Assembly (NCBI GenBank): GCA_937922655.1
Contig: CALAJH010000030.1
Location: forward strand, 1 to 64,000
Direction: 5' to 3'
Length of the DNA stretch: 64,000 nt
Origin: an uncultured Bacteroidia bacterium
Lineage (GTDB): Bacteria; Bacteroidota; Bacteroidia; J057; CALAJH01
Below, piece after piece: positions 31,097 to 31,965 of this stretch. The notes beneath the pieces are model-generated. The model ran no database searches and was not told the origin of the DNA. It saw only the letters and a list, made by a program, of their open reading frames with translations. The translations under genes were made by a program, and so were the position numbers. Positions within the stretch are counted from its first letter, which is position 1. Each line of letters begins with the position of its first letter.

Positions 31097-31213
31097 ATGA
31101 TTAGTTTTTACATGGCAATGTTTCTTGCGGTGAACGTTCTGGTCATCGCAGGAACGATTTATTTTTTTTATCTCACTTTGCGAAAAAGAAAACGCAAAGA
31201 CAACGAGCTTTAA
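31097..31213 (+). CDS. Possible 38-residue single-pass membrane protein
   Basis: This ORF is below the track's length cutoff. It encodes a tiny protein with an almost entirely hydrophobic first 27 residues (FYMAMFLAVNVLVIAGTIYF) followed by a strongly basic tail LRKRKRKDNEL, the classic pattern of an inner-membrane miniprotein with a cytosolic C-terminus. It starts 7 bases after the terminator of the Spy-like gene, so it would need its own promoter or read-through. Its stop overlaps the last 4 bases of the convergent hydrogenase-like gene. It may be a chance ORF, but the amino acid pattern is better than chance. Confidence 0.45.
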   Translation: MISFYMAMFLAVNVLVIAGTIYFFYLTLRKRKRKDNEL

Positions 31214-31965
31214 ACGCGTCGCCTTAAAAGTTCAAGGATTCCGTTGACGAACGTCAGCGGATGGGGCGGGCATCCCGGAACGAACAGGTCCGGAGGACGG
31301 CGTTCCAAAAACGAGCGTTCAATTTCATGCGAGGGCGCAAAAACGCCTCCCGAAATGGCGCATGCGCCCACGGCAACGATGAACTTGGGTTCGGGCATGG
31401 CTTCGTAGGTAATTTCCAAAGCCTCGGCCATGTTTTCGGTAATGGGTCCGGTCAGAACAAGGCCGTCCGCGTGGCGAGGCGACGCCACGAAGTCGATGCC
31501 GTAACGCGCCATGTCGAAATTCGGATTGAGCGTGGCGTTGAGTTCGTTTTCGCATGCGTTGCATCCCCCCGCCGAAACCTGACGCAAACGCACCGAACGC
31601 GAAAAAATTTTGACGATTTCCGCCCGTACCGCCTCCGCAACGATTCCCCCGCCTCCGTTTTCCGTAACGGTCAAGCTTTCTCGTCGGTTGGAATACGTTC
31701 GGTAATTGGGCGTAAAAACGATTTTTTTCGACGGGCAAACCCATTCGCATTCGCCGCAAAAAATGCATTTGCCCATGTCCAAGGCAACGGGTGAAAGCGT
31801 GATGGCGTCCGTCGGACAAACCTCGGCACACTGCCGGCATCCTTGCGCACAGTTTTGGGGCCCGATGGCGGGCATACCGCGAAACGGTTGCGAAAGAACG
31901 GACTTTGTTGGGTCGGGAATGTATTGTTTACGGTTTTCCCAAAGAATTTTAGCCAGTCTGAGCAT
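31210..31965 (-). CDS. HycF-HycG-like fusion: ferredoxin domain plus [NiFe]-hydrogenase/NuoB-type small subunit
   Basis: A 251-residue protein. Residues 30-80 hold two [4Fe-4S] motifs: CAQGCRQCAEVCP (first spacing three rather than two) and CIFCGECEWVCP. Residues 105-251 match the small subunit of group 4 hydrogenases and NuoB: GGCNACENEL (CxxC), GACAISGGVF and PGCPPHP supply all four ligands of the proximal cluster. In formate hydrogenlyase these are separate subunits, HycF and HycG. No large subunit, membrane subunit or maturation gene is present, so it is an orphan in this window. The track start at 32004 lies upstream of the -7 box; the ATG at 31965 (MLRLAKILWENRKQY) is preferred. Confidence 0.85.
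   Translation of the reverse strand: MLRLAKILWENRKQYIPDPTKSVLSQPFRGMPAIGPQNCAQGCRQCAEVCPTDAITLSPVALDMGKCIFCGECEWVCPSKKIVFTPNYRTYSNRRESLTVTENGGGGIVAEAVRAEIVKIFSRSVRLRQVSAGGCNACENELNATLNPNFDMARYGIDFVASPRHADGLVLTGPITENMAEALEITYEAMPEPKFIVAVGACAISGGVFAPSHEIERSFLERRPPDLFVPGCPPHPLTFVNGILELLRRRV

Follow-up and report, generated by a model that had tools for sequence, protein, structure and literature searches.

The gene at positions 31210..31965 (minus strand) of the 64-kb window, as we call the whole stretch of DNA analyzed here, very probably encodes the electron-entry subunit of a complete, electron-driven energy-converting hydrogenase-related (Ehr) complex whose genes are scattered over the genome; this judgment leans mainly on the identity of the gene. 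That the product is an Ehr subunit with distant partners is close to certain, and the electron-driven ion-pump mechanism is favored with distinctly less assurance. Ehr complexes are hydrogenase-like complexes without Ni/Fe-coordinating residues, of unknown function (PMC6349859, PMC4378227, PMC10284858), and the fusion gene is a new member of this known, uncharacterized kind with an unusual genomic layout. It looks orphaned because the six genes of its complex are scattered over four distant places in the genome.

Results

The 251-residue product joins a HyfH/HycF-type ferredoxin to a HyfI/HycG-type small subunit, as domain matches, alignments and an AlphaFold model indicate, so that the HycF-HycG-type fusion proposed in an initial annotation made from the sequence alone is borne out. 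A Pfam search of the product places Fer4 domains at residues 35-80 and PF01058 (Oxidored_q6) at residues 135-246 (E 1.6e-29); the N-terminal part also matches HycF/HyfH and NuoI models. From the Fer4 and HycF/NuoI matches and a ligand census we delimit a ferredoxin domain with two [4Fe-4S] sites (residues 24-90; 31696..31896, minus strand), and from PF01058, an MbhJ/HycG alignment and the same census a NuoB/HycG-type small-subunit domain that carries the proximal [4Fe-4S] ligands (residues 115-248; 31222..31623, minus strand). Among solved structures, the C-terminal part is closest to MbhJ (7e-33) and to E. coli formate hydrogenlyase (FHL) subunit 7, HycG (2e-28), and the N-terminal part to FHL subunit 6, HycF (2e-10). 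The AlphaFold model, built from 24 homologues (mean pLDDT 87.7), has E. coli FHL HycG and MbhJ as its top PDB matches, and the ATG start of the reading frame lines up with the starts of 13 homologues. Convergent with the gene and overlapping its stop is a possible 38-aa single-helix membrane protein on the plus strand (31097-31213; MISFYMAMFLAVNVLVIAGTIYFFYLTLRKRKRKDNEL).

All 12 cluster cysteines are present: eight in the ferredoxin domain (39, 43, 46, 50, 67, 70, 73, 77) and four proximal-cluster ligands (C135, C138, C202, C232), counts that had been read from the sequence and that alignment and census now corroborate. On the standard topology of 2[4Fe-4S] ferredoxins, cluster I would be bound by C39, C43, C46 and C77 and cluster II by C50, C67, C70 and C73. 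The first ferredoxin motif, CxxxCxxCxxxCP, is one residue longer than the canonical form, a spacing common to most intact homologues. C135 and C138 form a CxxC spaced as in hydrogenases, whereas complex I has adjacent cysteines (CC); such a tandem pair, which serves cluster N2, is found in the genome's two NuoB proteins. Retention of the complete set of ligands argues for selection on electron transfer.

Of 395 genomes sampled from the same class, 14 besides the source genome encode a homologous fusion with 51-57% identity, and in all 14, as far as the contigs reach, the fusion is the last gene, following hyfG, of a hyfB(-B)-C-E-F-G-HI operon. A scan of GTDB returned at least 551 related stretches. 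The best 80 of these were retained by similarity and are therefore not an unbiased sample; they span about a dozen phyla, including Bacteroidota, Ignavibacteriota, Calditrichota, Planctomycetota, Lentisphaerota, Myxococcota, Bdellovibrionota, Spirochaetota, Fibrobacterota, Acidobacteriota and Melainabacteria, and keep the order hyfB-C-E-F-G-HI throughout. The neighborhood comparison that the initial annotation had proposed thus puts the fusion at the end of an operon in its relatives. Three class members carry a 354-359 aa protein family directly 3' of the fusion gene (L033:3282-4349, L035:7863-8942, L040:8089-9153).

The source genome is a 3.58 Mb draft in 84 contigs, rated 100% complete. No partner gene lies among the ORFs flanking the fusion in the window, where the fusion gene was the sole tblastn match to hyf and nuo subunits; the earlier statement that no large subunit is nearby accordingly holds for the window. 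It does not extend to the genome, and neither does the label 'orphan', since hyfB, C, E, F and G were all found on other contigs. In total the genome encodes three large subunits (PF00346), three small subunits (PF01058) and three membrane subunits (PF00146), of which two of each type are of the complex I type or best assigned there; subtracting these two sets from the three NuoB-, NuoD- and NuoH-type proteins leaves one of each for Ehr. The suggested search for HycE/NuoD-like large subunits therefore ended with one of Ehr type among three. This 466-aa HyfG-like protein (C1:118164) is about 25% identical to complex I relatives and 46% to an Ehr HyfG. Its gene stands directly behind that of HyfF (469 aa; NCBIfam hydrogenase 4 subunit F, E 9.5e-60), which overlaps its start. 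HyfC (304 aa, 51% identity) is encoded on contig C64, followed by HyfE (34% identity; best family model hydrogenase 4 membrane subunit), and HyfB on C11 (hydrogenase 4 subunit B, E 8.7e-62). The hydrogenase 4 model matches of HyfF, HyfE and HyfB all fall below curated cut-offs, as is expected of a divergent group.

The pairs hyfF+hyfG and hyfC+hyfE, and hyfB, each occur once, on three contigs other than that of the fusion, and no Ehr locus comes closer than 12 kb to the end of its contig; the genes therefore occupy four separate places. Charged residues conserved in the membrane arms of intact operons are largely kept here (HyfB 13/16, HyfC 18/20, HyfE 4/6, HyfF 7/7), as are, in the fusion, the small-subunit residues conserved in operon-encoded homologues. 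The genome thus has the HycG/NuoB-family small subunit and the NuoH-like, HyfE-like and antiporter-like genes by which Ehr is recognized; the single gene cluster, customary though not mechanistically defining, is found in the relatives and replaced here by four loci. Complex I genes are dispersed likewise, so that dispersal is not peculiar to the fusion gene: NuoB, NuoD and NuoH occur twice each, scattered singly (C24, C25, C33, C45, C58, C1:51707), and when the proteins of two nuo operons served as tblastn queries, the surroundings of both NuoB and both NuoD loci yielded a single nuo gene each.

The large subunit on C1 belongs to the group 4/NuoD family and has lost its NiFe site. The E. coli HycE motifs CGIC and DPCYSC read CGDT and DLSYCG, leaving one of the four NiFe cysteines, and the ligating CxxC pairs are missing from all 94 family large subunits compared; their usual signatures are ESIAGD(T/S)..GH and SF(D/N)LSY(C/A/S)G.DL. 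HypD, the Hyp gene searched for, was not found in this genome rated complete, nor was any PF00374 NiFe-hydrogenase large subunit. The two CxxC motifs and the HypD that mark a group 4 [NiFe] hydrogenase are accordingly both missing, and a hydrogenase identity was rejected. The presence of the partners, the loss of the NiFe ligands and the absence of HypD and PF00374 together point to an Ehr complex with dispersed genes. The initial annotation had left the choice between a distant partner and a hydrogenase-independent role; both hold. A complete operon elsewhere with a small subunit of its own would have counted against that annotation; none was found, the only other PF01058 proteins being the two tandem-cysteine NuoB.

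The ligand census of 108 fused proteins reveals that the clusters are not equally conserved. All four cluster II ligands are present in every protein; cluster I and the proximal cluster vary. All twelve ligands are kept in 55 proteins, and proximal ligands are altered in 47, typically to D/C/D/N, 34 of these having no cluster I ligand at all. The altered proteins form a cluster-depleted clade (L033-L046, L062, L063, L078 and other Bacteroidota operons among L081-L139; for example L034:9193-9945) that includes all 14 other homologues in the window's class, in which the window protein stands out by its complete ligands. In a first tree the proximal ligands were lost on a single branch (SH-aLRT 95); after removal of the twelve ligand columns and addition of more rows, one change still suffices, with support down to 58. 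Wherever identified, the bearers are Bacteroidota. One depleted fusion (L155) comes from family f83, which does not belong to the window's class and otherwise yielded intact fusions, so that a horizontal transfer is suggested. Three loci outside the depleted group (L152, L154, L156) show an intermediate pattern, in which 0 or 1 of 4 cluster I ligands is present and the proximal cluster is intact.

HyfB, C, E and F of the depleted operons keep nearly all charged residues, with HyfB E123, K188, H308 and K316 present in 43 of 43. Two copies of hyfB occur in 12 of 21 depleted operons with room for them, in contrast to none of 28 intact operons; the second copy is in tandem (L034:664-4680, L085, L087, L111, L136 and others).

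In the trees, the small subunit encoded in the window and its presumptive large subunit both fall close to the Bacteroidota members of the family. Both branches are long (0.98 and 1.87 changes per column, respectively), and relaxed constraint or altered function could also account for this pattern of substitution. Neither of the two quick trees puts the window's small subunit within the depleted clade, but a clade that joins it to the depleted group is not rejected (AU p 0.757). The large subunit belongs to a starred group whose 45 rows comprise 40 from depleted operons and 5 from intact ones, a placement that broadly agrees with that of the small subunit, as expected if the dispersed genes descend together.

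Discussion

The predicted complex consists of the antiporter-like HyfB and HyfF, the NuoH-like HyfC, HyfE, a NiFe-less HyfG/HycE-like large subunit and the fused HyfH-HyfI. A cytosolic donor, either ferredoxin or a dehydrogenase, would reduce the clusters of the ferredoxin domain, from which electrons would pass to the proximal cluster, all three [4Fe-4S] clusters residing in one polypeptide. The proximal cluster would then reduce a quinone-like or different acceptor in the cavity where small and large subunits meet. To judge from the membrane arm, this redox chemistry would be coupled, possibly in reverse, to movement of H+ or Na+ through HyfC, HyfF and HyfB. We found no measurement of the Ehr electron acceptor in the literature. 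In Geobacter, all Ehr subunits are more abundant on formate than under hydrogen-containing conditions (PMC7894505). Formate dehydrogenase was considered as the donor here and rejected: the genome has a single, sub-threshold match to PF00384, the catalytic subunit family of molybdopterin oxidoreductases and formate dehydrogenases (C1:43786). With no molybdopterin oxidoreductase above cut-off, formate is not an obvious donor.

The fusion might instead act alone or with a partner outside Ehr, as a soluble electron-transfer protein left after loss of the complex. The missing neighbors in the window and the long branch of the small subunit would fit such a remnant; however, every partner subunit is encoded once with its charged residues kept, and the fusion itself retains the residues conserved in operon-encoded homologues, which makes this explanation very unlikely, if the least so of those considered. 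A little less probable again is an assembled complex whose redox function is vestigial and which serves mainly for ion exchange, a role also suggested for the depleted clade of the same class. That clade did lose proximal and cluster I ligands and keep its membrane-arm charges, but the window protein has all its ligand cysteines.

Two further readings give the gene to a better-known enzyme. Membership in PF01058, together with the scattering of complex I genes in the same genome, is compatible with an alternative NuoI-NuoB module for one of the two complex-I-type sets; against this, the genome has two separate tandem-cysteine NuoB proteins, and the fusion is 48-58% identical to Ehr operon proteins versus 33-35% to its own genome's NuoB, so we consider the idea remoter still. 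Least credible is that a functional group 4 [NiFe] hydrogenase of the FHL/Hyf type uses the fusion as its small subunit, to which the similarity to HycG/HycF and MbhJ and the hydrogenase-type proximal spacing would point, since the large subunit has one of four NiFe cysteines and the genome yielded neither HypD nor a PF00374 match. An Ehr complex with dispersed genes remains our explanation.

Comparison with known systems agrees with this assignment. As in other Ehr complexes (PMC6349859, PMC4378227, PMC10284858, PMC7894505), a NiFe-less HycE/NuoD-like large subunit accompanies a HycG-type small subunit and NuoH-, HyfE- and antiporter-like membrane subunits; the differences are that ferredoxin and small subunit form one protein here, a trait common to the relatives, and that four loci take the place of one operon. 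E. coli formate hydrogenlyase and hydrogenase-4 (Hyc, Hyf) have homologous subunits, and HycF and HycG the same cluster ligands, but the system described here has no NiFe site, no HypD and no formate dehydrogenase-type gene above the family cut-off. Pyrococcus MBS likewise belongs among the group 4 relatives, has no working NiFe site and still uses distal, medial and proximal clusters; in MBS one proximal cysteine is non-ligating and catalysis takes place at the proximal cluster itself, whereas the fusion has MBH-type CxxC spacing, which permits coordination by four cysteines. In both MBS and complex I, a chamber of the large subunit adjoins the proximal cluster (PMC7684303). Respiratory complex I shares the superfamily core (NuoB/NuoI/NuoD/NuoH) and differs in its tandem NuoB cysteines, which the fusion does not have; here the ferredoxin is fused and the membrane subunits are of the hydrogenase-4 type.

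The cluster-depleted clade is a more surprising result than the fusion gene itself. Nearly confined to Bacteroidota, it may, on a tentative reading that we put somewhat below an even chance, comprise machines of the complex I family that transport ions in the absence of the customary electron wire, with the window's organism preserving the fully wired state that preceded the loss. We found no description of this clade in the searchable literature; this is weak evidence, as the founding Ehr paper (Marreiros 2013) lay outside that scope.

Ehr is widespread, to judge from the number of related stretches and the spread of phyla among the best of them. The source genome indicates that a complex encoded by an operon elsewhere can be retained with its genes dispersed. 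Set against the depleted Bacteroidia clade, the window protein makes it possible to ask, as in a natural experiment, whether a membrane arm of the complex I kind can function when no electrons pass through a proximal cluster.
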